Assembly: GCF_006228125.1 (NCBI RefSeq)
Contig: NZ_VDFY01000093.1
Coordinates: 1-64,000, forward strand
Length of the DNA stretch: 64,000 nucleotides
Source: Micromonospora orduensis
GTDB taxonomy: Bacteria; Actinomycetota; Actinomycetes; Mycobacteriales; Micromonosporaceae
Reading direction: 5' to 3'
Position numbers and translations under genes: made by a program. The notes below the pieces were generated by a model, which saw only the letters and a program-made list of their open reading frames with translations, did not search any database and was not told the DNA's origin. Below are positions 3,329-64,000 of the stretch, piece after piece (the first letter of the stretch is position 1; each line of letters starts with the position of its first letter).

Positions 3329-3705
3329 ACGACCGCGAGCGGCACGAGGCGGGCATGACGGTACGTCGACAGGTGCTGGGTGACGCGCACGTGGACCGGG
3401 CGATCGCCGGCACGGACCAGTTCACCGCCGACTTCCAGGACTTCATCACCCGCTACGCCTGGGGGGAGGTGTGGAGCCGGCCGGGCCTCGACCGGCGGAC
3501 CCGTAGTTGCGTCACCCTCGCCGTACTCGCCACCCTGCACCACGACGAGGAGTTGGCGATGCATGTCCGGGCCGCGCTGCGCAACGGGCTCAGCCCCGAG
3601 GAGGTGGCGGAGGTCCTGCTCCAGGTCGGCGTCTACGCTGGCGTACCGGCGGCGAACCGGGCGTTCAAGGTGGCCCGGGAGACCCTGCGGCAGGAGGCCG
3701 GGTGA
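3325..3705 (+). CDS. pcaC: 4-carboxymuconolactone decarboxylase
   Basis: Small decarboxylase of the AhpD-like fold, 126 residues, converting gamma-carboxymuconolactone to the enol-lactone. Family-typical stretches are RRQVLGDAHVDRA at the N-terminus, then DFITRYAWGEVWSRPGLDRRTRS and LLQVGVYAGVPAANRAF near the end. ATGA overlap with pcaD, and the 3' end overlaps the regulator start (GTGA). The functional order in the operon is therefore dioxygenase, cycloisomerase, hydrolase, decarboxylase, regulator; biochemically PcaC acts before PcaD. Confidence 0.93.
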   Translation: MNDRERHEAGMTVRRQVLGDAHVDRAIAGTDQFTADFQDFITRYAWGEVWSRPGLDRRTRSCVTLAVLATLHHDEELAMHVRAALRNGLSPEEVAEVLLQVGVYAGVPAANRAFKVARETLRQEAG

Positions 3706-41589: not shown

Positions 41590-41685
41590 CGATGACCAGG
41601 GTCAGCCAGTAGGCGCACCGAGCCCGGCAAGATTATCGTCCGACCGGCCTGATCGCGGCGCTGACCGGGGGGTATCCGCCCAGGG

Positions 41686-41925
41686 TCACACAGGGAAGGT
41701 GGGGCAGCAGGTGGTGAGCGCGAGCGGGACGGCGGCGTCGACGTCTCCGGCGTTGCCAGCGACCAGGTGTCCAACCAGGAGGCCAACCGGGATGGCCAGA
41801 CCGGCCAGGGCCGCCGTACGCAGGCCAAAGGCAACCATCGGGCTGACCTCTGGCTCCCCGGCGGGGTGCGGGTCCTCGACGTGGGCGGTGTCGGCGAGGT
41901 CGGCGGTGAGCTGGTGAGACATCAT
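41686..41925 (-). CDS. lanA: Putative class II lanthipeptide precursor, atypical
   Basis: 79 residues directly downstream of lanM, starting with two ATGs (41925, 41922) that overlap the lanM stop, after a strong GAGGAG site. The acidic N-terminal leader (TAHVEDPHPAGEPEVSP) is followed by a hydrophobic stretch (residues 36-57) and a short end with LALTTCCPTFPV. Two Thr followed by two Cys could give (methyl)lanthionine. GNAG at 57-60 could be a GA/GG-type leader cleavage point, leaving a 19-residue core. Position and Cys/Thr end support LanA; the membrane-like segment and adjacent cysteines are unusual. No sequence match to a named lantibiotic is recognised. Confidence 0.6.
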   Translation of the reverse strand: MMSHQLTADLADTAHVEDPHPAGEPEVSPMVAFGLRTAALAGLAIPVGLLVGHLVAGNAGDVDAAVPLALTTCCPTFPV

Positions 41926-44900: not shown

Positions 44901-45140
44901 GTTCAGCTCCGCGCCACGGTCGGCCCGCCACAGGTCCAACCGCCGCCGCGCGTGGCCGAGCCGCCCGGTGTCCACCGGGTCGGTGCCGCCGCCGGCGGTC
45001 ACCCGCTCGTGCAGCGCCAGGCCCCGCGCCCACCAGCCCCGGCGGAGTCGGGGCGACTCGGCCGGAGCGAGGCTGGGTGGGCCGTCGGCGTCCGTGGTGT
45101 TCATCGATTTGAGGGTGCCAAGCGGCGGCGGGTAACTCAT
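41922..45140 (-). CDS. lanM: Class II lanthipeptide synthetase LanM
   Basis: Bifunctional enzyme that dehydrates Ser/Thr and closes thioether rings, 1072 residues. The N-terminal kinase-like dehydratase domain has VYKPRDLTHDGRLAAFV and TTDLHYENVIASGEDPVAIDVETLF; the C-terminal LanC-like cyclase has the zinc ligands GWCAGTAGLAL and LCHGESGVGEAL. ATG 45140 is chosen because GGTGGA lies eight bases upstream; ATG 45104 is possible. A much longer open frame upstream is antisense to the SARP gene. No LanT transporter or protease gene is nearby. Confidence 0.93.
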   Translation of the reverse strand: MSYPPPLGTLKSMNTTDADGPPSLAPAESPRLRRGWWARGLALHERVTAGGGTDPVDTGRLGHARRRLDLWRADRGAELNVRLGELGVDEDRLLTFLAEEDGHLAARVDPPPWAVLIESAVRAAAPPPSVPVPADWRTAFALPLRPLVDQARARFRRDAGPVTDAQVDLGALDAALGATLERQLAALAARTFVEELHRRRTAGLLPGADSRARFVGFVRQLATPAGLAALFTDLPVLARLLGQATAHATDAMLELLARYTADRDRLVDNLLGGVDPGPLVAVDDRRGDPHRAGRTTTVVQFADGRRLVYKPRDLTHDGRLAAFVSWMNRMVPTVGMRTAACLVRPEYGWTEFVIAAPLADTDGADRFYRRQGALLALAHALNTTDLHYENVIASGEDPVAIDVETLFSPSWRPATQSGDPAADLLAASVHRTALLPLIVVGDQGIMDLSGAGGDEGRQSPVRRIDWADPGTDQMRLVRRASAFDGASNRPRLGDRVIDPEDHEAAMLEGFRLGYEAIEAHRGEFAQLVKASSAMTVRLVVRPTWAYRTLLDESTHPSLLRDGLDRDRFLGQLCGRTTLPGDPLFARHEIVALWRGDVPYFHARADSPHLAADGEPTTVPLYRSGVDAALDRITGLGEADRQDQEWVITASLATRRPLGAHGDMAPMPGPSHGTAAPPERLVSAACAIADQIVARGAPGRDRVNWLGLELVDDRQWLLLPMGAGLANGYLGVALFLGQLAHISGVARYGDVARRAVAATPGLLRLLSDRPELVTAIGCGGLHGLGGLAYGLARLAVLLDDPEIGRWVDTAVELAEVAVAGSATDDWATGKAGCLAAMTSIHAELGLDRAAALARTCADQLAGTTAFDHPASPAGFADGTAGIAYALHRFVDVGGGSRQHGDAARKALRHARRTPTNSSGWCAGTAGLALALAGRHDAGTSPAADPDAPTHLVRRLADRPLSRDLSLCHGESGVGEALTVLAAGPAGPAAAAALRQRTTLLLNSLQWQTRYCGTPDGVLTPGLLTGLAGIGYGLLRSALAARIPSALLLEPTPQPTGTGWLSLTNPFTPRREEK

Positions 45141-45383
45141 GCGTGGGATCCACCCAAATTCTTGTCGGCCAGGCTGGTCGCCGCAGATCGCGCACTTTCC
45201 GGTGCTGCCCGGGCGACAGTCGGTGATGACCGCCCGGAGGGTGGGACCGCGGGCCGGCGTCGGTGCTGTGGCGATATCACGCGGGTGTGGACGACGGAAC
45301 TTGGGTGCCCGGCACAGATGCGTCGACGCGCGACGGTGGTCGACCCTCCGACTGTTCGATGGGCTGACCTGATCGGAGCAACT

Positions 45384-47204
45384 GTGGAGTTTCGCGTACT
45401 GGGGCCGGTGAGCGCCTGGCGCGACGGCGGTGAGGTCCCGCTGGACGGCGCCAAGCAGCGCACCGTCCTGGCCGTCCTGCTGCTCGCCCGGGGGCGAATC
45501 GTCTCCGACACGCGGCTCTGCCAGCTGCTGTGGGACGAACACCCGCCGGCGACGTTCGCCGCCCAGCTCTACAACTACGTCTCCCGCCTGCGGAAGTATC
45601 TCGGCGACGAGGTGGAGATCGTCAGGCAGTGGTCCGGCTACATGTTGCGGATGGGGGACAGCCGACTCGACCTCGACGAGTTCGAGCGAATGGCCGGGTC
45701 GGGTCGGGACGCACTGCGCTCCGGTCGGCACGAGGAGGCCGCACGGGAACTGCACGGGGCGTTGGCGCTGTGGCGCGGGGCGACGCTCGCCAACGTCACC
45801 GACCACCTCGTCGAGGCGGAGTCGCCCCGGATGACCGAGGTGCGGATGGCGGTCCTGGAGGATCGCATCACTGTCGACCTGATGCTGGGCCGGCAGGCTG
45901 AGCTGGTGGTGGAGCTGAGCGACCTGGTCGCCGCGCAGCCGCTGCACGAGCAACTGCGCAGCCACCTGATGACGGCTCTGCTGCGGTGCGACCGTCAGGC
46001 CGACGCGCTGGCCGTCTACCACGAGGGCCGGCGGGTGCTCGCCGACGAGCTGGGGGCCGATCCGGGACCGGCGCTGGCCGAGGCGTACCAGGTGGTGCTG
46101 GCCGGCCGTGGGATGCCCGATGTCGCGGTCGCAGCGCGGGCCGGAGCCGGCTGGCGGGACGTCCGGCCGGCGATGCTGCCGCCCGGAGCACAGGACTTCT
46201 GCGGCCGGGAGCAGGAACTGCGGGAGCTGGCCGGGCTGCTCGCCGAGACGTCGCCGTCCGCTCCGCAGCGGACGCTGCTGACCGGGATGCCCGGCGTCGG
46301 CAAGTCGGCGCTGGCGCTGCGGGCCGCGCACCTCTGCCGCGGCGAGTTCCCGGACGGGCAGCTCTACGCCGACCTCGGCGGCACCCGGGGCAACGCCACC
46401 GACCCGGGCGACGTGCTGGGCTGGTTCCTCCGGAGTCTCGGTAATGCCGAGGAGGCCATTCCGAGGCGCCTCGACGAACGCGAGTGCCTCTACCGCAGCC
46501 AGTTGGCCGGCCGCCGGGTGCTGGTGGTGCTCGACAACTCCGCCAACTATCCGCAGGTCCGCCCGCTGTTGCCCGGTGATCCGTCCTGCCGGGTGATCCT
46601 GACCTGCCGTGGTCGCCTCTCCGAGTTGCCCGGTGTCACCCGCGTCGAGGTGGGCATCCTCGATCCGGCGCAGGCGCTTGAGCTGTTCGCCACGATCGTC
46701 GGCTCGCGGCGGGTGGCCGCCGAGCTCGGTGCCGCACACCGGATCGTGCAGTTGTGCGGGCGGCTCTCGATCGGCATCCGGGTGGCTGCGGCGCGGCTCA
46801 TCGCCCGGCCGCACTGGTCACTGCGCTACCTCGCGCAGCGGCTGGCCGACGAACGGTTCCGTCTCAACGAACTACGGCTGGGGACGCTTGACGTGCGGGC
46901 CCGCATCGAGGGCAGCTACCAGGAGCTTGAGATCGAGAGTCAGGTCGCGCTGCGCCGGCTGGCACTGCTGAACACGGCCGACTTCCCGATCGGGGCCGCC
47001 GCCCGGGTGCTCGGCGTGACGCCCCGGGTGGGGGAGGAGGTGGCCGAGAGCCTGGTCGACGCCCGGCTGCTGGAGATCGCGGGCTCGGACGGCGGGCGGC
47101 GGCAGCGACACCGCTTCCACGATCTGGTACGGGTCTTCGCGCGGGAGAAGGCCGACCCGGTGGACCACCGCGTGGTGACCGCCCGGTCGGTGTTGTCGGC
47201 ATAG
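45384..47204 (+). CDS. SARP-family regulator with NB-ARC ATPase domain
   Basis: AfsR-like Streptomyces antibiotic regulatory protein, 606 residues. An OmpR-like DNA-binding domain (VEFRVLGPVSAWRDGGEVPL, QLYNYVSRLRKYLGD), a bacterial transcriptional activation domain to about residue 245, and an NB-ARC ATPase (GMPGVGKSALALRAA at about 300; VLVVLDNSANYPQVRPLL). The TPR tail of full AfsR proteins is missing. GTG 45384 follows GGAG by five bases. It is divergent from lanM, but the repeats that look like SARP sites are in front of the downstream acyl and NRPS genes. Confidence 0.9.
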   Translation: MEFRVLGPVSAWRDGGEVPLDGAKQRTVLAVLLLARGRIVSDTRLCQLLWDEHPPATFAAQLYNYVSRLRKYLGDEVEIVRQWSGYMLRMGDSRLDLDEFERMAGSGRDALRSGRHEEAARELHGALALWRGATLANVTDHLVEAESPRMTEVRMAVLEDRITVDLMLGRQAELVVELSDLVAAQPLHEQLRSHLMTALLRCDRQADALAVYHEGRRVLADELGADPGPALAEAYQVVLAGRGMPDVAVAARAGAGWRDVRPAMLPPGAQDFCGREQELRELAGLLAETSPSAPQRTLLTGMPGVGKSALALRAAHLCRGEFPDGQLYADLGGTRGNATDPGDVLGWFLRSLGNAEEAIPRRLDERECLYRSQLAGRRVLVVLDNSANYPQVRPLLPGDPSCRVILTCRGRLSELPGVTRVEVGILDPAQALELFATIVGSRRVAAELGAAHRIVQLCGRLSIGIRVAAARLIARPHWSLRYLAQRLADERFRLNELRLGTLDVRARIEGSYQELEIESQVALRRLALLNTADFPIGAAARVLGVTPRVGEEVAESLVDARLLEIAGSDGGRRQRHRFHDLVRVFAREKADPVDHRVVTARSVLSA

Positions 47205-47242: not shown

Positions 47243-47260
47243 CGTATGGAGAAGATATAG
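47243..47260 (+). promoter_or_regulatory. Candidate SARP box, copy 1
   Basis: Heptamers CGTATGG and GATATAG are separated by AGAA, giving the 11-bp period typical of SARP sites. It ends 22 bases before the GTG of the first dehydratase gene, close enough for a leaderless or short-leader transcript. Confidence 0.6.
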
Positions 47261-47282
47261 CCGGTGCCGGCACGGTCAGTGA

Positions 47283-47651
47283 GTGACCATCCTGATCCCG
47301 CCCGAGTGCGCGACCAGCGCGCGGATCGACCTCGACCACACCAGCGGGGACGAGATCGTCGCCCGGATCCGGCCCGACCGGGACGACCCGGTCTTCGCCG
47401 GGCACTATCCCGGGTTCCCCCTGCTGCCGGGTGTCTACATCGTCGAGTACGTGCACCGCGCCGTCCTCGCGGCGGTGCCGTCGGCGATCCTCGCCGAGCT
47501 GGTGTCCTGCCGGTTCCTCCGAACGATCGATCTCGACGACGAGCTGGTCGTCTCCATCCGGTGTGACGGCGGGCTCTACCGGGGCGCGGTCGCCGTGTCC
47601 GGCGTACCGGCCGCCGAGGTGGTGTTGCGTTACCAGGAAGGAGACGGTTGA
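47283..47651 (+). CDS. FabZ-like hotdog dehydratase, catalytic
   Basis: 122-residue 3-hydroxyacyl-ACP dehydratase-like protein. The signature HYPGFPLLPGVYIVEY carries catalytic His41 and Glu55 in the normal order. It is shorter than housekeeping FabZ and lacks the usual N-terminal IPHRxP stretch, which is instead in the next gene. The start is GTG 47283. The downstream gene overlaps by one base, suggesting the two make a heteromeric dehydratase. Confidence 0.8.
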   Translation: MTILIPPECATSARIDLDHTSGDEIVARIRPDRDDPVFAGHYPGFPLLPGVYIVEYVHRAVLAAVPSAILAELVSCRFLRTIDLDDELVVSIRCDGGLYRGAVAVSGVPAAEVVLRYQEGDG

Positions 47652-48115
47652 TGCTCGACCGCGACGACATCCGGCGGCTCATCCCGCACCGCCCGCCGAT
47701 GCTCCTGGTCGACCGGGTCAGCGAACTGGTGCCCCGGCGCCGGCTGGTGGGCAGTTACACGGTGACCGGACCCCGGCCGTTGCCCGCCGTGCTGCTGCTG
47801 GAGTCGTGGGGGCAGGCCGCGCTGGTGCTGATCCGGCACGACCGGCCGATGCCCGACGTGCTGACCGACGGGGTGCCGATCGCGGGTGCCTTCGAGGGGA
47901 TCCGCTTCGGCCGGCCGGTGCTGCCGGGCGAGACGGTCGAGCACCGGGTCGAGCTGATCCGGCTGATCGCCGACACGGGTTTCGTCCGGGGCGAGAGCGT
48001 GATCGGCACCGAGGTGGTCATGCAGGTCGGTCGTCTGGTCGGTGCGGTGCGCCCGGCGGCCGCGCTTCGCCCCGCCGTCCTGGCCGGGGTCTCCGACGTC
48101 AAGGAGTCGACATGA
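47651..48115 (+). CDS. FabZ-like hotdog protein lacking the catalytic His
   Basis: 154 residues. It has the FabZ beginning LIPHRPPMLLVDRV and the central-helix end LLLESWGQAALVL with the conserved Glu51, but the loop normally reading GHFPGxPxxPG is shortened to GPRPLPAV, with no His. It probably is the non-catalytic or substrate-binding partner of the preceding protein, as in split hotdog dehydratases. ATG 47651 shares a base with the previous stop (TGATG). ATGA overlap with the reductase. Confidence 0.75.
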   Translation: MLDRDDIRRLIPHRPPMLLVDRVSELVPRRRLVGSYTVTGPRPLPAVLLLESWGQAALVLIRHDRPMPDVLTDGVPIAGAFEGIRFGRPVLPGETVEHRVELIRLIADTGFVRGESVIGTEVVMQVGRLVGAVRPAAALRPAVLAGVSDVKEST

Positions 48116-48858
48116 GTGAAATCCGACGACCGGTCGCCCTGGTCAGCGGCGGATCCCGAGGGATCGGCCGGGCCGTGGTCCGGCAGCTCGCCGCGGACGG
48201 GTACGACGTGGCTTTCTGTTATCAGAGCAACCGGGAGGCCGCCGAGAAGGTGGCCGCGGAGGTGCTGGAGGCCGGTGCCCGGGTGCTGGCCCGGCAGGTG
48301 GACGTCGCCGACGCCGCGCAGGTGCGCGACTTCGTCACCGGGGTGGAGCGCGACCTGGGCGGGATCGCGGCCATGGTGACCGTCGCCGGGATCATCCGTG
48401 ACCGGCCGGTGGCGATGATGGCCGACGAGGAGTGGCAGTCGGTGATCGACGTCAACCTCGGGGGCGTCTACAACGTGTGCCGGGCGGCGATCCGCCGGAT
48501 GATGCGGCGTCGTGGTGGTGCCATCGTCACGGTCTCCTCGGTGGCCGGCATCACCGGCAGCCCGGGCCAGACGAACTACTCGGCCTCGAAGGCCGGCATC
48601 ATCGGCTTCACCAAGGCGCTGGCGAAGGAGGTCGGCCCGTACGGGATCCGGGTCAACGCCGTGGCGCCGGGCTTCATCGAGACCGACATGCTGAACGACC
48701 TGCCAGCCGGGCTGACCGTGGGCGTCCAGCAGCGGACCGCGCTGGGCCGGCTCGGCCAGGCGGAGGAGGTCGCCCCGGTGGTGACGTTCCTGCTCTCGGA
48801 GCGGGCCTCCTACCTGACCGGGCAGGTCGTCACGGTTGACGGTGGTCTGACGTTCTGA
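48112..48858 (+). CDS. 3-oxoacyl-ACP reductase, FabG-like
   Basis: 248-residue SDR. NADPH motif VSGGSRGIGRAV, catalytic Ser in VTVSSVAGITG, and Tyr and Lys in TNYSASKAG; the ending RLGQAEEVAPVVTFLLS, YLTGQVVTVDGGL is the FabG pattern. It completes a dehydratase-dehydratase-reductase set in one unit. The frame is open far upstream as a shadow; ATG 48112 overlaps the previous stop by four bases. Its 3' end overlaps the convergent SDR gene by 29 bases. Confidence 0.9.
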   Translation: MSEIRRPVALVSGGSRGIGRAVVRQLAADGYDVAFCYQSNREAAEKVAAEVLEAGARVLARQVDVADAAQVRDFVTGVERDLGGIAAMVTVAGIIRDRPVAMMADEEWQSVIDVNLGGVYNVCRAAIRRMMRRRGGAIVTVSSVAGITGSPGQTNYSASKAGIIGFTKALAKEVGPYGIRVNAVAPGFIETDMLNDLPAGLTVGVQQRTALGRLGQAEEVAPVVTFLLSERASYLTGQVVTVDGGLTF

Positions 48859-49717
48859 CCCGCTGTGCCGCGAGCCGGGCCCGCATGGCCTCCAGACGGG
48901 CCTGGCTCGCCTGCGTCCGGGCGCGGCGCGCGGTGATCCGCAGATAGGCCGTACCGAGTAACCGGGTGAGCAGGTCGGCCCGGCGGGCGTCCGCCCCGAC
49001 GATGATCTTCACCCGGTTGCGCCGGACCCCGCGCAGGATGATCCGGGCGGCCTGCTCGGCCGAGGTCGTCGCCTCCCGGGCGTAGCGCTCCCGGATTCCG
49101 CCGTAGCCGAGCCCTGTCGCGGCCCGGGCGTTGCTGAAGATGTCGGTCCGCACCGTGCCCGGGTAGACGCAGCTGACCTTCACCGGCACGTCGCCGACAC
49201 GCATCTCCTGCAACACCGCCTCGGTGAAGCCCCGGACGGCGAACTTCGCCGCGTTGTACGCGCTCTGCGCCGGCGCCGGGGTCAACCCGTACATGCTGGA
49301 GATGTTCACCAGGTGGCCCCGGGTGGCGACCAGTTGCGGCAGGAACGCCTGGGTGCCGTGCACCACGCCCCAGAAGTCGACGTCCAGCACCCATCGCATG
49401 TCGTCCCAGTCGGCCTCGGTGATCGAGGCAAGCAGGGTCACGCCGGCATTGTTGATCACCAGGTCGGCGCCGCCGAAGTCGGCGCGTACCTCCTTGGCGT
49501 GGTTCTGCACCGCGAGCCTGTCGGTGACGTCCAGCCGGTAGGTGCGGACCTCGGCTCCCCGTTCAGCGCAGCTCGCGGCGGTCTGCGCCAGGCCCTCCGG
49601 CACCGCGTCGGAGAGGGCCAGGCGGGCGCCCTGCGCGGCCAGCTCGACAGCCAACGCCCGGCCGATGCCTGAACCCGCACCGGTGACGACCGCGACCTTT
49701 GATCGGAACTCCTCCAT
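48830..49717 (-). CDS. Short-chain dehydrogenase/reductase
   Basis: 295-residue classical SDR. Cofactor motif VVTGAGSGIGRALAV, NNAGV, catalytic Ser in NISSMYGLTPAP and Tyr/Lys in SAYNAAKFAV. The Arg-rich C-terminal extension (LRITARRARTQASQARLEAMRARLAAQ) is not typical of FabG. It is the only minus-strand gene in the biosynthetic block and has its own candidate SARP box upstream, so it is probably a tailoring or acyl-modifying enzyme. ATG 49717 chosen by the fold start; upstream frame is non-coding. Confidence 0.85.
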   Translation of the reverse strand: MEEFRSKVAVVTGAGSGIGRALAVELAAQGARLALSDAVPEGLAQTAASCAERGAEVRTYRLDVTDRLAVQNHAKEVRADFGGADLVINNAGVTLLASITEADWDDMRWVLDVDFWGVVHGTQAFLPQLVATRGHLVNISSMYGLTPAPAQSAYNAAKFAVRGFTEAVLQEMRVGDVPVKVSCVYPGTVRTDIFSNARAATGLGYGGIRERYAREATTSAEQAARIILRGVRRNRVKIIVGADARRADLLTRLLGTAYLRITARRARTQASQARLEAMRARLAAQRVRTSDHRQP

Positions 49718-49784
49718 GCGCGCTCCCTCGGAATCGGCGTGCCGCCTGCGGCGACACACGTCCGCCGTACGGTCCGGGGCCGGG

Positions 49785-49802
49785 CTATCTCTTTTCCATA
49801 CC
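49785..49802 (-). promoter_or_regulatory. Candidate SARP box, copy 2 (minus)
   Basis: On the minus strand GGTATGG-AAAA-GAGATAG, again two heptamers at 11-bp period. It lies 67 bases before the start of the SDR gene. Confidence 0.6.
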
Positions 49803-49808
49803 GGGCGC

Positions 49809-49826
49809 GATGTAGAGAAGTTATGA
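49809..49826 (+). promoter_or_regulatory. Weaker SARP-like box, copy 3
   Basis: GATGTAG-AGAA-GTTATGA has the same spacer AGAA and period as copy 1 but a poorer second heptamer. It is 69 bases before the FabH-like gene and back to back with copy 2. Confidence 0.4.
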
Positions 49827-49895
49827 GAGCCCCGCCGAACACTGCCTCCGGACGGTGCCACCAGGACGCCGACCAGGCGTGGTGCGGAGGAGGCG

Positions 49896-50852
49896 ATGGC
49901 ACAGATGACAGGCGCGGCAATCACCGGGCTCGGGGCGTACCGGCCGAGCAGACTGATCACCAACGAGGAGATCTCCGAGGAAGCCGGCGTGACTCCGGAG
50001 TGGATCGAGGAGCGGACCGGTATCCGGTCGCGCTATCGGTCCGGGCCGGACGAATCCGTGACGATGATGGCCGCCGAGGCTGGCGGAAAGGCGCTGGCCA
50101 TGGCCAACGTCGACCCGGCCGAGGTGGACCTGGTCATCCTCGCCTCCGCGACGAAGAAGGACCGCATCCCGGGTGGGGCGCCGGAGGTGGCCAGCCGGAT
50201 CGGCATCACCGCCACCGGGGCGTTCGACCTGAACGCCGCCTGCGCCGGCTTCGCCTACTCGATCGGGATCGCGGCCAACGAGATCCGGATCGGCGGTGCC
50301 CGCAACGTGCTGGTCGTCGGGGCGGAACAGCTGAGCCGCTTCATCGACCCGGAGGACCCGGCGACGTACGTCATCTTCGGTGATGGTGCGGGCGCCGCGG
50401 TGGTCTCCCCGGCGGAGGTCGACGGAATCAGCCCGACCGTGTGGGGCAGCGACGGCTCGCGGTCCGACATCCTCGGCACCAAGTGGGACGCCAACGGCCG
50501 CGAGTTCGCCAAGATGGACGGCCCCCTGGTCTACCGCTGGTCGACGAAGAACGTGCCGAGGGTGGCCCGCAAGGTGTGCGCCCACGCCGGCATCGAGCTG
50601 TCGGACATCGACTGGTTCGTGCCGCACCAGGCGAACCTCCGCATCGTCGACCAGTTGGCCGAGATCCTCCAGATCCCGGACGAGAAGGTCGCCAAGGACA
50701 TCGTCGACACCGGCAACACCTCGGCCGCGTCGGTGCCGCTGGCGCTCAGCCGGCTGCACGAGAGCGGTCGGACCACCCCGGGCGACCGCGTGCTGCTGCT
50801 GGGCTTCGGGGCGGGACTCGCCTACGCCGGGCAGCTCATCCGGATGCCCTGA
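49896..50852 (+). CDS. FabH-like ketosynthase III
   Basis: 318 residues with a complete KASIII triad: Cys116 in NAACAGF, His244 in VPHQAN and Asn274 in GNTSAAS. Such enzymes start an acyl chain from an acyl-CoA and malonyl-ACP. It stands directly before the ACP gene, so it probably loads or primes the acyl chain of the nearby peptide cluster. No KS/CLF pair is present in the window. Confidence 0.88.
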   Translation: MAQMTGAAITGLGAYRPSRLITNEEISEEAGVTPEWIEERTGIRSRYRSGPDESVTMMAAEAGGKALAMANVDPAEVDLVILASATKKDRIPGGAPEVASRIGITATGAFDLNAACAGFAYSIGIAANEIRIGGARNVLVVGAEQLSRFIDPEDPATYVIFGDGAGAAVVSPAEVDGISPTVWGSDGSRSDILGTKWDANGREFAKMDGPLVYRWSTKNVPRVARKVCAHAGIELSDIDWFVPHQANLRIVDQLAEILQIPDEKVAKDIVDTGNTSAASVPLALSRLHESGRTTPGDRVLLLGFGAGLAYAGQLIRMP

Positions 50853-50892
50853 CCACTCCGATCACGACCCCTCCCACGAAAGGACAAGCACC

Positions 50893-51147
50893 ATGACGAT
50901 GACCGTGAACCAGGTGTCCCTCGACGTTGTCTCGCTCACGCGCAAGCTGATGACCGAGGACGTCGACCGGGAGATCAACGCCGGCGACACCTTCGTCGAC
51001 CTCGGGCTGGACAGCCTCAAGCTCGTCGACCTGCTCGCCGCCGTGGAGACCCACTTCGACATCGAGGTGCCGGACGAGAAGGTCGGCAGCTTCGCCAAGG
51101 TCCAGGATCTCAGCGACTTCGTCCTCTCCGCCCGGTCTCCGGTGTGA
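50893..51147 (+). CDS. Acyl carrier protein
   Basis: 84-residue stand-alone carrier. The phosphopantetheine site is Ser41 in DLGLDSLKLVDLL; helix II sequence and the acidic end EVPDEKVGSFAKVQDL are ACP-like. ATG 50893 follows GAAAGGA by seven bases. It overlaps the C-domain gene (GTGA), coupling carrier and condensation protein. Confidence 0.92.
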   Translation: MTMTVNQVSLDVVSLTRKLMTEDVDREINAGDTFVDLGLDSLKLVDLLAAVETHFDIEVPDEKVGSFAKVQDLSDFVLSARSPV

Positions 51148-52499
51148 CCGAGGACGTCCGGGAGTTGTCGGTCGGGCAGCGGGCGCTGTGGCTGGTCCAC
51201 CGGCTGGCCCCGGACAGCCCGGCCAGCAACGTGGTCCACGGTCTGCACGTCGAACCGGCGCTCGACCCCGACCTGGTACGCCGGGCGTTGGCGGTGGTGC
51301 GATCACGACACGACCTGCTCCGGTCCCGGTTCGTGCAGACGGACCAGGGTCCGGTGCGGGTCGTCGATCCCGACCTCGGGTGCGAGGTCGAGGTCCACGA
51401 TGTTCCCGACCTGGACGACGACGGGCTGGTGCGCCGCTGCCAGGAGTTCGGCGACCAGCCGCTACGGCTCGGGCGGGACGGTCCGATGCGGGTGGCGCTG
51501 CTGCGGCGGCGCACCGACTGCGTGCTGGTGGTGGTCATCCACCACATCGCCACCGACTTCCACTCTCAGCGGATCGTCTGGCAGGAGTTGGACGCCGCGT
51601 ACGGGGCCCTGCAGGCCGGGCGGGCGGTGGAGTTGCCGCCGGTCTCCGGCAGCTACGACGACTTCCTCGCCCGGGAACGGGCGGCCCTGGCCGGCGAGCG
51701 CGGCGAGCGGCTGCGCGCCTACTGGGATCAGGTCTGCGACGGTGCCACGGCGGCCACGCTGCCGACCGACCGGCCCCGTCCGCCGGTGCGCTCGTTCCGC
51801 GGCGGCGCGTTCAGCCAGGAGATCCCGGACGACCTCGCCGTCCATCTGCGGGAGGCCGCGGCCGCGGCCGGGGTGACGCCGTACAGCGTCGTGCTCGCCG
51901 CGTTCCAGGCGACGATGTACCGCTACACCGGGCTGGGGGAGCTCACCGTCGGTTGTCCGGCGTCGCTGCGCCGGGGGCGGGCGCTGCGCGGGGTGGTCGG
52001 CATGTTGATCAACACGATCGCGCTGCGTGGGTCGTTCGACGCGGACACCACGTTCGCCACGGCGATCACCGCGGCGAGTCGACAGCTCACCGACGCCGTG
52101 GCCCATGCCGCCTACCCGTTCCCGCTGCTCCGATCGGGCCGACGTAACCAGGATCCACCGGTGCGGGTGACCGTCACCCTGCTGGCTCACCAGCACGGTG
52201 ACAACTACAGCACCCGGCGGCACGCGTTCGCCGGGCACCGGATCCGGCTGCTGGACATCCCGTACGACGAGGGCCAGTTCGACCTGTCGGCGACCCTCAC
52301 CCAGTACCAGGACGGCCGGCTCCAGGCGGAGTTCGGTTACGACACCGACCTGTTCGACGAGCCGACCGTGCAGCGGCTGGCCGGGCACTTCCTCCAGATG
52401 TTGCGGGTGGCCTGCACTGCGCCTCAGACGGTCGTTTCCCTGGCGCCGATGGTCGACCAGGCGGAACTGCGCGAACTGCTGGCGCTCGGCACCCGATAG
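51144..52499 (+). CDS. Stand-alone NRPS condensation-domain protein
   Basis: 451 residues forming one condensation domain and nothing else: start ELSVGQRALWLVHRLAPDSP, HH motif IHHIATDFHSQ (HHxxxDF rather than HHxxxDG) at about residues 132-138, and late DxxL-like GQFDLSATLTQY. GTG 51144 overlaps the ACP stop. A free C domain next to an ACP and an NRPS that begins with an A domain is likely the N-acylating starter domain acting in trans (inference). Confidence 0.88.
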   Translation: MTEDVRELSVGQRALWLVHRLAPDSPASNVVHGLHVEPALDPDLVRRALAVVRSRHDLLRSRFVQTDQGPVRVVDPDLGCEVEVHDVPDLDDDGLVRRCQEFGDQPLRLGRDGPMRVALLRRRTDCVLVVVIHHIATDFHSQRIVWQELDAAYGALQAGRAVELPPVSGSYDDFLARERAALAGERGERLRAYWDQVCDGATAATLPTDRPRPPVRSFRGGAFSQEIPDDLAVHLREAAAAAGVTPYSVVLAAFQATMYRYTGLGELTVGCPASLRRGRALRGVVGMLINTIALRGSFDADTTFATAITAASRQLTDAVAHAAYPFPLLRSGRRNQDPPVRVTVTLLAHQHGDNYSTRRHAFAGHRIRLLDIPYDEGQFDLSATLTQYQDGRLQAEFGYDTDLFDEPTVQRLAGHFLQMLRVACTAPQTVVSLAPMVDQAELRELLALGTR

Positions 52500-52632
52500 A
52501 CCGGTGCGGCGTGACCCCGTGGCGCCCTGACGCCACCGGGACGGTGTGTCCGCCGCACGGGCCGGGATCCGGTCGGCGCGACCCCCGTCGCCGGCCGGAT
52601 CCCGAGGCCCGGCGGTGGCGGCCCGAGGCACC

Positions 52633-52650
52633 GGTATAGGGGCGGTATAG
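52633..52650 (+). promoter_or_regulatory. Candidate SARP box, copy 4 (perfect repeat)
   Basis: Two identical heptamers GGTATAG separated by GGGC, 11-bp period, in the 200-bp gap before the SbnA-like gene. A TTGACA follows at 52657-52662 and TAGGTC at 52678, spaced 15 bases, a possible weak promoter. Confidence 0.65.
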
Positions 52651-52702
52651 CGCCGATTGACAACGTCGTGGCATTGCTAGGTCACTCGTGGAGGGAGGAA
52701 CG

Positions 52703-53683
52703 GTGCGCGAGGGCATCCTCTCGACGGTCGGGAACACACCGCTGGTACAGCTGGTCCGGTTGTTTCCGGAGTTCCCCTCCCGGTTGTTCGTGAAGCTCGA
52801 ACGCTTCAATCCCGGCGGCAGCATCAAGGACCGCACCGCGCTGAGCATGCTGCGCGCCAAGGTCGAATCCGGGGAGCTCGTGCCCGGCCGGTCGGTGGTC
52901 GTCGAGTCCAGCTCGGGCAATCTGGCCATCGGCCTCGCCCAGGTCTGCGCGTACTACGCGATCCGGTTCATCTGCGTGGTCGACCCGAAGACCACCCGGC
53001 AGAACCTCGCGATCCTGACCGCGTACCGCGCGGAGATCGAGATGGTCGAGCATCCCGACCCGGTCACCGGCGAATATCTACCGGCCCGGCAGCGCCGCGT
53101 CCGCGAGTTGTGCGAGCAGGTCCCGCACGCCTACCGACCGGACCAGTACGCCAACCCGCTCAACGCCGCGGCGCAGCGGCAGACGATGGCCGAGATCGTG
53201 GCCGCGCTCGACGGGCGGATCGACTACCTGTTCTGTTCCACAGGCACCTGCGGGACGCTTGTCGGCTGCGCCGGATACCTGCGTGAGCACGGGCTGTCCA
53301 CTCAGGTGGTGGCGGTGGACGCGGTGGGCAGCGCCATCTTCGGCGACGAACCGGGGACCCGGTTGATCCCCGGGCACGGCGCCTCGGTCGTGCCGCCCCT
53401 GGCCGCCGACGCCACACCGGACGAGATCATGCACGTCTCCGACCTGGACTGCGTGGTCGGTTGCCGGTTGCTGCTGCACCGCGAGGCCATCCTCGCCGGC
53501 GGATCGTCCGGCGCCACGGTGGCCGCACTGAGCCGACGGATGGCGGACATCCCGGCGGGTGCCACAGCCGTGCTGATCCTGCCCGACAACGGTGACCGTT
53601 ACCTCGACACGATCTATTCGGATCAATGGGTTTCCCGGCATTTCGGGGAGATCACCCACCTGTGGAAGGACGCCACGTGCTGA
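52703..53683 (+). CDS. sbnA: SbnA-like N-(2-amino-2-carboxyethyl)-glutamate synthase
   Basis: PLP enzyme of the cysteine-synthase fold, 326 residues. The PLP lysine lies in PGGSIKDRTAL, the phosphate loop in FCSTGTCGTLVG, and substrate loop in ESSSGNLAIGLA. In staphyloferrin B synthesis SbnA joins O-phosphoserine and glutamate as the first step to L-2,3-diaminopropionate. Assignment rests on resemblance and on the adjacent SbnB-like gene. GTG 52703 is chosen for its GGAGGGAGG site; an earlier GTG at 52688 is possible. Confidence 0.85.
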   Translation: MREGILSTVGNTPLVQLVRLFPEFPSRLFVKLERFNPGGSIKDRTALSMLRAKVESGELVPGRSVVVESSSGNLAIGLAQVCAYYAIRFICVVDPKTTRQNLAILTAYRAEIEMVEHPDPVTGEYLPARQRRVRELCEQVPHAYRPDQYANPLNAAAQRQTMAEIVAALDGRIDYLFCSTGTCGTLVGCAGYLREHGLSTQVVAVDAVGSAIFGDEPGTRLIPGHGASVVPPLAADATPDEIMHVSDLDCVVGCRLLLHREAILAGGSSGATVAALSRRMADIPAGATAVLILPDNGDRYLDTIYSDQWVSRHFGEITHLWKDATC

Positions 53684-54711
53684 TCATCGGTCGGGCCGTC
53701 GTACGGGACATCCTCGACGGCGACGACGCCCGGGTGGTGGATCTGATCCGCCACGCGTACCTGCTGCACGAGCAGGGCCGCACGAGCCTGCCGCACTCGG
53801 TCTTCCTGCGCTTCCCGCAGCGACCCGGCGACCGCATCATCGGCCTGCCCGCCTACCTCGGCGCCGACCCGCCGGTGAGCGGGATCAAGTGGATCTCCTC
53901 CTTTCCCGGCAACCTGGCCATCGGGCTGGAGCGGGCCAGTGCGGCCATCCTGCTGAACTCGATGCGTACCGGCCACCCGGTGGCCCTGGTCGAGGGTTCG
54001 GTCATCTCGGCCCGGCGTACCGCGGCGAGCGCGGCGCTCGCAGCCGGTCTGCTCACCGCGCACCGCCGGCCGGACGGTCTGGCCCTGATCGGCTGCGGGC
54101 TGATCAACCAGCAGGTGCTGCGGTTCGTGGCCGGCACCCTCGCCCCGCCGCCCGCGCTGACGGTGTTCGACACCGACCCGCGCCGGGCCGAGGCCGTCGC
54201 CGAGGCCGCCCGGGCCCTGCTGCCGGAGATGCCGACGACTGTGGCCGGGACCGCCGAGGAGGCGTTGGCCGCGCACCGGCTGGTGTCGATCGCCACCACC
54301 GCCACCGAGCCCCACCTCGACCTGGCCGCCTGCCGGCCCGGCGCGGTGGTGCTGCACCTGTCCCTGCGCGACCTGCTCCCCGACGGGCTGCTGACCGCGC
54401 GCAACGTGGTCGACGACCCCGATCACGCCTGCCGCGAGGGCACCTCGTTGCAGTTGGCCGAGCGGCTCACCGGCGGCCGGGACTTCATTCACGCCACCAT
54501 CGGCGCGCTGGCCGACGGCCGGGTGCGACTGCCCGTCGACGACGTGCCGGTGGTGGTGTCCCCGTTCGGCCTCGGCGTGCTGGACCTCGTGCTCGCCGAG
54601 CACGTGCGTGCCACCGCCGACCGGCGACGCCTGGGCGTACGCGTCGACGACTTCCTACCCGTGGTGGACGCCACCGTGGCGTCCACCGGATCCCTGAAGG
54701 AGTGGCAATGA
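53677..54711 (+). CDS. sbnB: SbnB-like diaminopropionate-forming dehydrogenase
   Basis: Ornithine-cyclodeaminase/mu-crystallin family, 344 residues. NAD motif LALIGCGLINQQVL, plus GIKWISSFPGN and LVEGSVISARRTAASAALA in substrate binding. SbnB oxidatively hydrolyses the SbnA product to L-2,3-diaminopropionate and 2-oxoglutarate. GTG 53677 follows GAAGGA and overlaps the SbnA-like stop by seven bases. Together the pair should supply Dap for the NRPS. Confidence 0.85.
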   Translation: MLIIGRAVVRDILDGDDARVVDLIRHAYLLHEQGRTSLPHSVFLRFPQRPGDRIIGLPAYLGADPPVSGIKWISSFPGNLAIGLERASAAILLNSMRTGHPVALVEGSVISARRTAASAALAAGLLTAHRRPDGLALIGCGLINQQVLRFVAGTLAPPPALTVFDTDPRRAEAVAEAARALLPEMPTTVAGTAEEALAAHRLVSIATTATEPHLDLAACRPGAVVLHLSLRDLLPDGLLTARNVVDDPDHACREGTSLQLAERLTGGRDFIHATIGALADGRVRLPVDDVPVVVSPFGLGVLDLVLAEHVRATADRRRLGVRVDDFLPVVDATVASTGSLKEWQ

Positions 54712-54914
54712 CCGACAACCGCAGCTACCGCGTGGTGCTCAACGACGAGGAGCAGTACTCGGTCTGGTGGACCGACCGGGATCTGCCCGCCGGCTGGCGT
54801 GCCGAGGGCACCGAGGGCACCCGCGACGAATGCCTGGCCCGGATCGGCGAGATCTGGACCGACATGCGGCCGCTGAGCCTGCGCCAGCGCATGGAGTCCC
54901 AGGCCACGGCCTGA
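54708..54914 (+). CDS. MbtH-like protein
   Basis: 68-residue chaperone-like partner of adenylation domains. The three invariant Trp regions are present: EEQYSVWW, LPAGW and IWTDMRPLSLR. Overlaps the SbnB-like stop (ATGA). It is followed within 48 bases by the A-domain-first NRPS, which probably needs it for activity. Confidence 0.95.
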   Translation: MTDNRSYRVVLNDEEQYSVWWTDRDLPAGWRAEGTEGTRDECLARIGEIWTDMRPLSLRQRMESQATA

Positions 54915-54961
54915 CCACCTGATCCGATCCCACGCCCGCGCCCGGTCCCCGGAGGAGCACC

Positions 54962-57900
54962 ATGAGCATCGTTCCGCCAGCGGCGCCCGCAGCCGCAGCC
55001 GTCACCCAGGGGGCGGGCACCCTGTCCGAGCTGATCGCCCGGCAGGCCGCGCTGACCCCCACCGCCATCGCGGTGAGCGGCGAGTACGAGCGGCTGGACT
55101 ACGCCGGACTGGACCGGCGGGCCAACCAGCTCGGTCGGTACCTGGCCGAGCGGGGCATCGGCCCGGAATCGCTTGTCGCGGTCAACCTGGACCGCGGCGT
55201 CGACCTCGTGGTCGCGTTGCTGGGAGTGTGGCGAGCCGGTGCCGCGTACCTGCCGCTGGACCCGACCCACCCCGCCGAGCGGCGGCGGCGTCTCTTCGCC
55301 GGCAGCGGGGCCGCGGTGCTGCTCACCCGCGACGCGCTGCGCGACGAGGCGACGCCCGACCGGGTGGTCTGCCTGGACACCGACCGGGCGCGGATCGAGG
55401 GCTGCCCGGACACCGCCGTGGTGCCGTCACCCGACCCGGACTCGGTGGCGTACGCCATCTACACCTCCGGGTCCACCGGTGACCCCAAGGGAGTCCTGAT
55501 CACCCATCGCGGCATCGGCAACCGGGTGACCTGGACGATCGGGGAACACGGCCTGGGCCCCGGCGACCGGGTGCTGCAGAAGACGTCTGTCAGTTTCGAC
55601 GCGGCGGGCTGGGAGTTCTTCGCCCCGCTGGCCAGCGGCGGCACCGTGGTGCTCGCCCCGCAGGGGGCGCACCGGGATCCCGCCGCGCTGGTCGCCGCGG
55701 TCATCCGGCACCGGATCACCGTCCTGCAGGGAGTGCCGTCGGTGTTCGGTCGGCTGGTCGACCAGCCAGGCTGGGCTGACTGCACCAGTCTGCGGCTGGT
55801 CTTCTCGGCCGGGGAGCCGTTGCACGCCGACCTGTGCCGGCGGTTGACTGTCACGCCCGACGTGCGGGTGTGGAACACCTACGGCCCCACCGAGTGCGCC
55901 ATCGACGTGACCGCCCACCCGGTGGACACGGCACAGCCGCCCGGGCCGGTGCCGATCGGACGTCCGCTGCCGGGCGTCCGCGTCCAGGTGCTCGACGCCG
56001 ACCGACGGCCGGTGCCGGTGGGTGTGGTCGGCGAGCTCTACATCGGTGGGGCCAACCTGGGCCGGGGCTATCTGCACCGGCCGGACCTGACCGCCGAACG
56101 GTTCGTGCCCGACGAGTACGGGCCGCCCGGCGCGCGCCTCTACCGCACTGGCGACCAGGTCCGGTGGCGCGGTGACCGGAGCCTGGAGTTCGTCGGCCGG
56201 ACTGATCACCAACTCAAGGTCAACGGGGTACGGATCGAACCGGCCGAGGTGGAGGCGGTGCTCGCCGCGCACCCGGACGTCCAGACGGCGGTGGTGGTGG
56301 GGCACACCGACCCGGCGGGTCGCCGGCAGCTCGCCGCGTACGTCGCCGGCCGGCGGTCACTCGACCCGGCGGCCCTGCGCGCGTTCTGCGTCGGCCGGCT
56401 GCCCGAGGCGCTGGTGCCGGCTGTCTTCCAGCCGGTTGCGGAGTTCCCGCTCACCGCCAGCGGCAAGATCGACCGGTCTGCCCTGCCGGCGATCGACCCT
56501 CTCGACCGGCCGGCGCTACGGCCGCCGCGGACCGCCGCCGAACGGACGGTAGCGGCCATCTGGCGGGACCTGCTCGGCGTCGACGAGGTCGGCGTCGACG
56601 ACGACTTCTACCAGCTCGGCGGCTCCTCACTGGTGACGCTGCTGCTGGAGAGCCGGCTCATCGGGGCGGGCGGCACGGTGACGCTGCGCGACCTGCTCAC
56701 CCACACCACAGTGGCCGCGCAGGCCCGACTCGTGGAGGCGGCCACCGCAGCCACCCCGGCGACCCCGCCGGTGCTGCCGGTGGGACGCGACAGGCCCCTG
56801 CCACTCTCCGCCGCCCAGCACCGGCTCTGGATGCTCGACCAGCTCGACCCGGGCAGCAGGGAGTGGGTCGTTCCGGTGCACGTACGGGTGCCCGCCGCCG
56901 TCCATCCCGACCACGTCCGGGCGGCCCTGCACGCGCTTGAGGCACGGCACGAGCCGTTGCGCACCCGCTACCTGGTGGTCGACGGCGTGGCCCGGCAGCA
57001 GGTCGTGCCGCCGGCAGCTGTCGACCTGGAGGTGCGCGACGTCAGCCACGGCGGGTTGGCCGAACTCATCACCGCACAGCTCGGCCGGGGCTTCGACCTG
57101 AACACCGGTCCGCTGTGGCGGGCCGGGCTGGCCGTCGCCGCCGGCCGCGACCACCTGCTGGTGCTGGCCGTGCACCACATCGCGTCCGACGCCGGCAGCG
57201 CCGACGTCCTCGAACGGGACCTGCGGGAGCTGTGCGACGCCGCCGCGCAGGGACGGCCGGGGGACCTGCCGCAGCTGCGGGTGCAGTACGCCGACTACGC
57301 GGTCTGGCAGAAGCGGCAGCTCACCGACGAGGTCGTCGCGCGGGAGTTGGCGTACTGGCGGGAGACGCTGGCGGGGATGCCCCAGCTGGAGCTGCCGCTG
57401 GACCATCCGCGCCCGGCCCGGCGGGACGCGCAGGGCCGGATGCTCGGGTTCACCGTCGCGGCGGAGATCGTCGGCGCCCTGACCGAGGTGGGTCGGCGCT
57501 GCGCGGCAAGCCCGTTCATGACAGTGCTCACCGGCTTCGCCACGGTTCTCGCCCGCTACACCGGGCAGTGGGACGTGCCGATCGGCACCCCCACGTCGGG
57601 TCACCGGCCCGCCGAGCTGGACCAGATCGCCGGGATCTTCCTCAATCCGGTGGTGCTGCGCTGCACTCTGGACCCGGCGTCCGCCTTCACCCAGGCGGTG
57701 CGGGGGGTCCGCGACCGGACCGTCGCCGCCCTGGCCCACCAGGACCTTCCCTTCGACCGGGTGGTGTACGACCTGGTCGGTGAGCGGGACCTGTCCCGCA
57801 CCCCGCTCTACCAGGTGGCGCTGAACTACCAGGAGGGTGGGATCACCGGCCGGGTGGCCGACGACCCGCTCACGATCGAGGCGCTGCGGCAGGCGTCCAC

Positions 57901-59964
57901 AGTGGCCAAGACCGACCTGACCGTGCACCTGTGGCCGCAACCGGACGGCTCGCTCGCCGGAGCCGTGGAGTACGCCACCGCGCTGTTCGACGACGCCACA
58001 GTGCGACGACTGGCCGACCATTTCGTCCGGCTGCTCCGCGCCGCCGCCGACGAGCCGGACGCCCGGCTGGACCAGCTCGACCCGTTCTCGGCCGAGGAGC
58101 GGCACCGGCTCTTGCACGAGTGGAACGGGCCGACGGTGCCCCGGCCGGCCACCACAGTGGTCGACCTGTTCGAGGCACGCCGCGTGGCGACACCGCAGGC
58201 CGTGGCGTTGCGCCACGGCGACGCGCATACCAGCTACGCCGAGTTGGACGACCGGGCCAACCGCTTCGCCAACCACCTGCGCCGCTCCGACGTCGGCCCG
58301 GGCGCGACCATCGCCGTACTGCTGGAGCGGGGACCCGACCTGGTCGCCGCGATTCTCGGGTGCTGGAAGGCGGGTGCGGCAGGTCTTCCGCTGGATCCCT
58401 CGTACCCGGCCGAGCGGATCGGCTACCTGCTCGACACCGCGGGCGTCGGCCTCGCCATCACCGACTCTCGGTACGCCGACCGGTTCGGGGTGCCCACCCT
58501 CCAGGTGGACACCCACCGGCTGATGGTCAGTTCCGAACCGCCCACCGCGCCGGCTCGTGATCTCGACCCGGCGCAGACGGCGTACGTGCTGTTCACCTCC
58601 GGATCGACAGGCCGCCCCAAGGGGGTGCTGCTCTCCCACGCGGCGGTGACGAACTTCCTGGCCTGCGCCACGGAGACCGAGGCGCTCGGCGACCGGGGTG
58701 GCCGCCCGGCCGGCGGCGGGGCGCCGCTCTTCTCCACCATCGCCTTCGACCTGTCGATCTCCAACCTGTGGGGGCCGCTGGTGGCCGGGCAGCCGGTGAC
58801 CCTGCTGCCGCAGGAGTTCGACCTCACCCAACTCGGCGCGCTGCTGCTGGCCGCCGGCCCGTACGACCGTTTCATCATGACGCCCCCGCATTTGGAGTTG
58901 CTGGCGACGCAGGTCGACGCCGCGCAGGCGCAGCGGCTGGCCGGTCAGCTCTGGGTGGCCGGTGGGGTGCTGCGCCGGTCCGTGGCGAACCAGTGGCTCG
59001 ACCTGCTCGGTCCGGGCGGCCTGATCAACTCCTATGGCCCGACCGAGACCACCGTGATCATGTCGGCGTACCCGGTGGTGGAACCACAGACCAGCGAGAT
59101 CGTGCCGATCGGCCGACCGATGGCGAACACCGTGGTGCGGATCCTGGACGACGCGATGCGGCTGCTGCCGGCCGGCGCCGTCGGCGAGCTGTACATCGGG
59201 GGCGACTGCCTGGCCACCGGCTATCTCGGGCAGCCCGAGCTGACCGCCGAGCGCTTCGTGCCCGACCCCTTCGGCCCGCCGGGTGCCCGCCTCTACCGCA
59301 GCGGCGACCTCGGTCACTGGCGGCCCGACGGGACGATGGCCTTCGTCGGCCGGGTCGACGACCAGGTCAAGGTCCGCGGCTACCGGATCGAACCCGGCGA
59401 GATCAGTGCCGTCGTCGCCCAACACCCGCAGGTACGCGACTGCGTCGTCCTCGCCCACCAGGACCGTCTGGTCGCCTTCTACCGCGGCGAGGCGACCGAC
59501 CTGGCCGCGTACTGCGCCAGGCAGTTGCCCGACTTCATGGTGCCGAGCCTGTTCGTGCCGGTGGAGCGGATCCCCCTCAACGCCAACGGCAAGGTCGACC
59601 GGGATGCCCTGCGCGGCCGGCTCGACGCGGCGCTCGCCGACGGCACCGCCGATCCCGCCGAGTTCGTCGCACCGCAGACCGTGGTGGAGAAGCGGGTCGC
59701 CGCGAACTGGGCGGAACTGCTCGACGCGCGGATCGGCGCGACAGCCGATTTCTTCCTCCTGGGTGGTCACTCGGTGCTCGCCGCCCGGCTGATCGCCGGG
59801 TTGCAGGAGGAGTTCGACCTCGACCTGCCGATCCGGCTGGTGTTCGAGCACCCGACGGTGCGCGCCCAGGCGATCGCCATCGAAGACCTGATCCGGGCGG
59901 AGGTCGACGCGCTGGACGCCGCCGACCTCACCCACGACCTTTCGCGATCTGAGGAGTACCCGGC

Positions 59965-59968
<4 letters not shown>
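54962..59968 (+). CDS. NRPS, domains A-T-C-A-T
   Basis: 1668 residues. A1 (about 20-520) has YTSGSTGDPKG and carrier Ser556 (QLGGSS); the C domain (about 610-1040) has HHIASDA at 738-744; A2 (about 1065-1560) has FTSGSTGRPKG and carrier Ser1604 (LLGGHS). Read by eye, specificity residues are D-A-W-Q-F-A-T-I-D-K for A1 and D-L-S-M-W-A-S-V-I-K for A2; neither gives a sure call, but A1 or A2 is the natural candidate for Dap. No N-terminal C domain, no E, MT or TE domain. ATG 54962 after GGAGGAG. ATGA overlap with the next NRPS gene. Confidence 0.93.

Positions 59969-64000
<4,032 letters not shown>

Follow-up and report, generated by a model that had tools for sequence, protein, structure and literature searches.

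The locus studied here raises the question of how the operons of an antibiotic-type gene cluster are switched on. The window (the whole stretch of DNA analysed, 64,000 nucleotides, C66:1-64000) comes from the genome of Micromonospora orduensis (6.9 Mb in 321 contigs), and the nearest named relatives found are Micromonospora. It carries a Micromonospora-type cluster for an acylated peptide, with a gene at 45384..47204 (plus strand) for a SARP (Streptomyces antibiotic regulatory protein) and, downstream of it, four pairs of directly repeated heptamers. A first-pass annotation proposed that these repeats define a SARP regulon. This proposal is supported, and is the best reading of the locus, because of the domains of the SARP, a spacing matching that of the AfsR complex, the conservation of the repeats and their co-occurrence with similar SARPs. 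The four repeats are very probably operators of the cluster-situated SARP, with binding itself a prediction from sequence. The regulon is new, although of a known kind; the newest part is a possible link between the recognition helix of the SARP and its heptamer.

Four heptamer pairs beside a SARP gene

The SARP gene was already placed next door to the repeats in the first-pass annotation, and Pfam confirms the assignment. The predicted protein of 606 residues has an N-terminal OmpR-type DNA-binding domain (Trans_reg_C, PF00486, 1.7e-7) followed by a BTAD domain (PF03704, 8e-42), both above the Pfam cut-offs, and then an NB-ARC domain (PF00931, 3.3e-7). It matches AfsR in the PDB with an E-value of 3.6e-124. 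An ortholog of AfsR would carry TPR repeats after the nucleotide-binding domain; here no TPR family was matched at an E-value of 0.001 and the protein ends at residue 606. The size, the NB-ARC domain and the absence of a TPR match are those of a medium SARP.

The four repeats are present exactly as first described. They are box 1, CGTATGG-AGAA-GATATAG at 47243..47260 (plus strand); box 2, GGTATGG-AAAA-GAGATAG at 49785..49802 (minus strand); box 3, GATGTAG-AGAA-GTTATGA at 49809..49826 (plus strand); and box 4, GGTATAG-GGGC-GGTATAG at 52633..52650 (plus strand). All are predicted operators of the SARP type, with two direct heptamers at an 11-bp period. All lie in intergenic space before a start codon, as had been claimed, the distance from heptamer to candidate start being 22 nt for box 1, 25 or 67 nt for box 2, 69 nt for box 3 and 37 or 52 nt for box 4. 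They stand in front of the biosynthetic operons of the cluster, namely operon 1 (47283..48858, plus strand), a short-chain dehydrogenase (SDR) gene (48830..49717, minus strand), operon 3 (49896..52499, plus strand) and operon 4 (52703..64000, plus strand).

The repeats might simply be chance matches to a degenerate motif that was derived from the sites themselves. Two weight matrices were used to rank the 127,966 positions of the window. With a self-trained matrix, built from the four window sites, these sites rank 1 to 4, and when each is left out in turn they rank 3, 4, 5 and 1. The second, outside matrix was built from eight boxes in five non-orthologous clusters; these boxes were themselves found using the window-trained matrix, so that the two matrices are not fully independent, a point in favour of the chance explanation. 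The outside matrix ranks boxes 1 to 4 at positions 2, 4, 7 and 1. The chance level was taken from its scores in 60 Markov-2 shuffles of the window, expressed per 64 kb. The score of box 4 (26.5) was never reached, that of box 1 (19.0) was reached 0.02 times and that of box 2 (13.1) 0.18 times. These three are not chance on score. Box 3, the weakest, is not significant by score and stands on conservation.

When spacers of 0 to 20 were scanned with the outside matrix at a score of at least 12, four pairs were found at a spacer of 4 (one being the reverse strand of box 4), one pair each at spacers of 0 and 8, and none at the others. The genome scan suggested at the outset was also informative: a loose 18-mer pattern allowing at most one mismatch has five matches in 6.9 Mb, three of which are window sites. 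Two near matches elsewhere in the genome (C133:49723 and C188:14456) were rejected as operators, having no -10 element at 10 nt. A strict composite pattern, comprising the operator pair plus a -10 and written after the window sites had been seen, matches twice in the genome, both times in the window; the reversed pattern, used as control, has no match. This genome-wide search, together with the conservation and the placement of the -10 described below, argues against chance as the explanation, which we consider extremely unlikely.

The position of the -10 element was determined at loci picked by homology to the SARP or to the condensation protein, never by the presence of a box, and the -10 played no part in choosing the set. 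Merging of near-identical boxes (at least 38 of 45 positions identical) reduced 28 boxes to 16, one of which (L196) is probably spurious. Counting from 0 after the 3' heptamer, offset 11 is occupied by A in 14 of the 16 and offset 15 by T in 13; at the other offsets between 0 and 29, A reaches at most 5 and T at most 6 of 16. There is thus an xAxxxT -10-like element that begins 10 nt after the 3' heptamer. In the window the predicted elements are CACGGT at 47271..47276 for box 1 (plus strand), GACCGT at 49774-49769 for box 2, AACACT at 49838-49843 for box 3 and CAACGT at 52661-52666 for box 4, with a spacing of 10 nt for three boxes and of 11 nt for box 3, and the 3' repeat overlaps the -35 region. 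The predicted transcription starts are 47283, 49762, approximately 49850 and 52673, respectively.

The geometry resembles that of AfsR on the afs box of Streptomyces coelicolor (PDB 8hvr, 8jke and 8k60). AfsR likewise has a SARP domain followed by a nucleotide-binding domain, and recognises two 11-bp direct repeats. According to the structural study (PMC10936776), its 22-bp box extends from -40 to -19, with repeats at -40 to -30 and -29 to -19, of which the first eight bp each are contacted; the 3' repeat is 8 bp from the -10, which for afsS is CACTGT, also of xAxxxT type. If the repeat is reduced to its first seven bases and the -10 is taken to lie at -12 to -7, the distance would be 10 nt, the same as for the window boxes. 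There are also differences: the window SARP has no TPR match and is cluster-situated, whereas AfsR is a global regulator.

Since the repeats keep a constant distance to a -10-like element, they could alternatively be -35-like elements of promoters for an alternative sigma factor, and not operators. However, there are two copies of the heptamer exactly one turn apart, and neither is 16-19 nt from the -10, the distances being 21 and 10 nt. The boxes are also associated with SARP loci across the family, as described below. An alternative sigma factor is therefore very unlikely.

Box 1 deserves a further comment. Its spacing, combined with the AfsR geometry, puts the predicted start of transcription at 47283, exactly where the GTG codon that opens the first dehydratase gene begins, and the mRNA of operon 1 should therefore be leaderless. 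A start codon 22 or 23 nt after the box, opening a frame of at least 100 codons, is found for 7 of 44 boxes, a count for which no control offset was computed; these seven are the window box at 47243 and boxes in L031, L033, L103, L149, L158 and L185. Leaderless first genes may thus recur among the boxes of this SARP class.

Conservation of the boxes and co-occurrence with SARPs

Eleven orthologous clusters were read: those of the window, G165, G197 (M. arida), G225, G349, G175 (Micromonospora sp. CP22), G057 (Phytohabitans suffuscus), G112, G324, G327 and G336. The box of the dehydratase operon (box 1) is present in 11 of 11, its conservation extending to P. suffuscus, and so is the box of the operon that begins with the ketoacyl-acyl carrier protein synthase III (KASIII) gene (box 3). 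The SDR box (box 2) is present in all nine clusters that have the SDR gene; box and gene are both absent in P. suffuscus and G112. The heptamers and the -10 are kept across relatives while their flanks differ. In G324 the SARP gene and box 1 are separated by an additional stretch that appears to be a gene, and the box remains with the dehydratase operon. In two further genomes the SARP gene is kept and neither biosynthetic genes nor a box was found in the sequence read (40 kb in G307, 20 kb in G201). The SARP of G307 is full length, and that of G201 is shortened, part of the NB-ARC region being missing. The G201 locus (L116, 9114-10000) adjoins genes for a LAL-family regulator and lanM, and with its apparent internal deletion seems to represent decay of the cluster.

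In G165, a search of 99.6 kb around the SARP gene with the window matrix yielded five pairs scoring at least 14, each followed by a -10. The fifth pair, GATATCG-AGGA-AATATGG, is 40 kb downstream, before genes for a TauD-family dioxygenase and a thioesterase, and is found also in G225. By comparison with these relatives, a fifth box is predicted for the unread right end of the window's own cluster, beyond the contig.

The strict pattern was then applied to other genomes. In the family, 31 of 354 genomes contain it, with 41 matches in all (reversed control, 4 matches); in a class-wide sample, 13 of 394 genomes contain it, with 15 matches (control, 4), two of the 15 being those of the window. Together there are 43 genomes with a match. 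In 11 of them the most similar SARP was already known to lie beside the box, from searches that started from the SARP. In 18 others the SARPs of the genome, numbering 6 to 41, were ranked by similarity to the first 241 residues of the window SARP, and in 14 of the 18 the top-ranked SARP is on the same contig as the box and within approximately 41 kb of it (G201, not being a box genome, was not counted). The remaining 14 genomes were left out of the ranking because their matches seemed to be chance hits or to lie in coding sequence. Overall the box is linked to such a SARP in 25 of the 43 genomes; within the family the figure is 22 of 31, and outside it 3 of 12. The pattern can thus find further SARP-controlled clusters within the family.

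These figures bear on another explanation, that the boxes are bound by a different regulator of 11-bp direct repeats encoded elsewhere, for example an OmpR-family protein of the PhoP type, and that the targets of the SARP are elsewhere. In favour of this, binding of PhoP at afsS overlaps with that of AfsR (PMC10972967), and a conserved gene for a LAL-family regulator lies close by. Against this, the boxes accompany SARPs of the window type in the 22 of 31 family genomes noted above, no box was found in the stretches read where the biosynthetic genes are missing, and the distance from box to -10 is that expected of a SARP. As for the LAL-family regulator, five non-orthologous clusters that have boxes (L102-L106) showed no gene for it within their 20-kb loci. 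A different regulator is therefore improbable.

Several observations weigh against the regulon as proposed. The score of box 3 (7.7) is within chance, being reached 0.53 times per 64 kb in the shuffles, and its -10 is at a spacing of 11, a shift of one base that is shared by its orthologs. One box in G288 (14038 in L105) has no -10, and box 1 of G336 has a degenerate 5' heptamer. The box of the operon for the PALP enzyme and the non-ribosomal peptide synthetase (NRPS), box 4, is present in 8 of 11 orthologous clusters, missing in G324, G327 and G336 though the operon is there; the KASIII and SDR boxes of these three have low scores (11.5-12.4) and keep the -10. Eighteen of the 43 pattern genomes are not linked to a SARP, and the pattern is much less specific outside the family. 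Four of these are among the 18 that were ranked (G330, G325, where the match is on a 3-kb contig, G560 and G007). In ten of the genomes left out (G176, G212, G060, G036, G083, G706, G699, G390, G704 and G424) no SARP was seen in up to 20 kb read, and the other four (G216, G396, G653 and G483) were not read. Finally, the positive non-orthologous clusters share homologous biosynthetic genes in part, so that common ancestry of the promoters contributes to the co-occurrence.

Taking the SARP as the regulator, we hypothesise that two protomers would bind side by side, one on each heptamer, with each recognition helix in one major groove and the two grooves one helical turn apart. The SARP would then dock the principal sigma factor and RNA polymerase on a promoter that has a -10 of the xAxxxT type and no usable -35. 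Four units would be turned on in this way: the dehydratase-FabG operon (leaderless from the GTG at 47283), the SDR gene, the divergent operon for KASIII, acyl carrier protein and condensation domain, and the operon for the PALP enzyme, the OCD enzyme and NRPS. In G165 and G225 the fifth box would add the TauD dioxygenase-thioesterase unit. An uncharacterised activator thus gains a testable list of targets, consisting of four promoters with predicted starts and a fifth in relatives.

Similar arrangements have been described. The medium SARPs CdaR, CpkO and FdmR1 (PMC10972967) are alike in length (approximately 600 residues), in having a SARP domain and NB-ARC, and in being cluster-situated, a likeness that concerns the features of the protein. 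PimR and other SARP-LALs (PMC5930380) use heptamers with 4-nt spacers, as in the window; PimR differs in its heptamer (CGGCAAG), in a main operator of three repeats that does not overlap the -35, and in having a LAL half where the window protein has NB-ARC alone. A study of SARPs as beacons (PMC12224297) took up the same idea, matching a SARP gene to a repeat in front of its operons by a de novo search for double repeats, but in Streptomyces and with TTGCAGT-N10-TTGCAGT as the example repeat. Among the papers listed for GTATAG or CTATAG in connection with SARPs none dealt with antibiotic regulators, and among those listed on SARP operators more widely none names the heptamer in its title or in the opening lines of its abstract; since motifs are often given in figures alone, this negative is weak.

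Recognition helix and heptamer

The DNA contacts of AfsR can be transferred to the window SARP with an alignment offset of 24. W74, P79, S91, R92, R94 and K95 are kept, as W50, P55, S67, R68, R70 and K71, while S46, Q48, S80, Q81, R87 (Y63 here) and T88 (N64 here) are changed. R87 and T88 lie in the recognition helix, and the other four make contacts to the backbone. PMC10936776 states that R92 contacts the third base of the repeat, T, and that its replacement by A prevents binding of AfsR; the third base is T in seven of the eight window heptamers. The heptamers otherwise differ, being of the (C/G)GTATAG type in the window and CGTT(T/C)ATC for AfsR.

The helix was compared with the presence of boxes in 44 loci, these being the window, three loci fetched using the condensation protein and 40 fetched by similarity to the SARP, of which 20 were hand-picked down the unfetched part of the similarity list (the G349 locus, L160, is outside the 44). 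A box with its -10 is present in 12 of the 14 loci whose SARP has Tyr or Cys at position 63 together with Arg68, and in none of the 30 with other helices (Fisher 4e-9, a value not to be taken at face value because the class is post hoc, the loci include orthologs and homologous biosynthetic genes are shared). Asn64 was considered as the residue that specifies TATAG and was dropped, since Asn and Thr both occur with boxes. Tyr63 and Arg68 fit the presence of a box better than Asn64, a choice that is post hoc.

It is possible that this constitutes a code, in which SARPs with the helix AQ(I/L)(Y/C)(T/N)Y(V/I/M)SRLR(K/R) use (C/G)NTATAG pairs with a -10 ten nt further on. Regulons, and the limits of silent clusters, would then be predictable from the activator gene, with leaderless first genes in several cases. 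Four SARPs found later, orthologs at 66-67 per cent, share the class helix; boxes accompany the three that have biosynthetic genes (strong in two cases, with a degenerate first box in the other), and the fourth, without such genes, has no box. We nevertheless hold the code at slightly less than evenly balanced, because 4 of 14 SARPs near boxes lie outside the class. If the link is true, activators could be matched to operons by sequence, which would be useful for switching on silent clusters.

The evidence on the other side is as follows. The class was defined after inspection, and orthologs make up 7 of its 12 positive loci. In the ranking test the class helix is present in ten of the 14 SARPs near boxes and absent from four (G058, G312, G248 and G535). 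A control locus, L201, has a pair scoring 15.6 with a -10. Two loci of the class lack a box: that of G201, with the shortened SARP, and that of G067, which has no box scoring at least 17 and instead has weaker pairs with a -10.

The weaker pairs of G067 (L273) are at 3619, 3644 and 11438, and combine CTTATAG or GCTATAG with CGGATAG, the -10 being at 10 nt. All three are within 30 kb of the SARP gene and perhaps represent a variant heptamer. A different variant, AGTATCG-N4-AGTATAG, occurs within the 20 kb around SARPs that have Gln63 and Ala71 (G058, G032, G120 and G078), and was not found in the 20 kb around the SARP of G104, which has Gln63 and Ser71.

Genes of the cluster and its surroundings

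Operon 1 encodes an ApeI-like dehydratase (47283-47651, below the Pfam cut-off), a FabA-like dehydratase (47651-48115) and a FabG-like ketoreductase (48112-48858). The SDR gene, the second target, is on the opposite strand. Operon 3 encodes KASIII (49896-50852), an acyl carrier protein (50893-51147) and a stand-alone condensation domain (51144-52499). Operon 4 encodes a PALP enzyme (52703-53683), an OCD enzyme (from approximately 53626 to 54711) and an NRPS (54962-59968, and a frame that stays open up to 71972, where the contig ends), all on the plus strand. The PALP and OCD enzymes are the pair that makes 2,3-diaminopropionate in SbnA/SbnB. A literature search for the product of the cluster gave no name for it among the papers listed.

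On the other side of the SARP gene is lanM (38614-45104, minus strand), for a lanM-type lanthionine synthetase. In each of 13 genomes it is the neighbour of the SARP gene, without boxes, and the LAL regulator gene lies beyond it in all ten genomes where the stretch read reached that far. This neighbourhood is kept also in two genomes without the acyl-NRPS genes in the stretch read. The first-pass annotation saw no repeat between lanM and the SARP gene, and this was borne out. A weak pair there (45273..45290, plus strand) was rejected as a fifth operator: it ranks fifth with the self-trained matrix but 46th with the outside matrix, has no -10 and is not conserved. The further claim, that the motif tells which operons are part of the pathway, which would leave lanM outside it, should be taken with care. 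Boxes do precede four operons, but the PALP-NRPS operon lacks its box in three orthologous clusters, and lanM, having no box, is neither placed in the pathway nor excluded from it by the boxes. Upstream of lanM and the SARP gene there are two blocks, TCATGCGTGGGATCCACCCAAATTCT (45137-45162) and AACTTGGGTG (45298-45307), with the same sequence in all six aligned genomes; they look like sites for another regulator.

Related clusters with KASIII, PALP, OCD and NRPS genes and boxes of the GTATAG type were seen in L186 and L187 (of another family, f21) and in L154 and L155 (of another genus, g16), with the SARP approximately 9-41 kb from the boxes; L187 has no KASIII match, and the gene comparison did not take in L155. 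The right end of the orthologous cluster in G165 (L276, 992-5126) contains genes for a carbamoyltransferase, an MFS exporter, the TauD dioxygenase and the thioesterase, which together with PALP and OCD we take to recall diaminopropionate and ureido chemistry.

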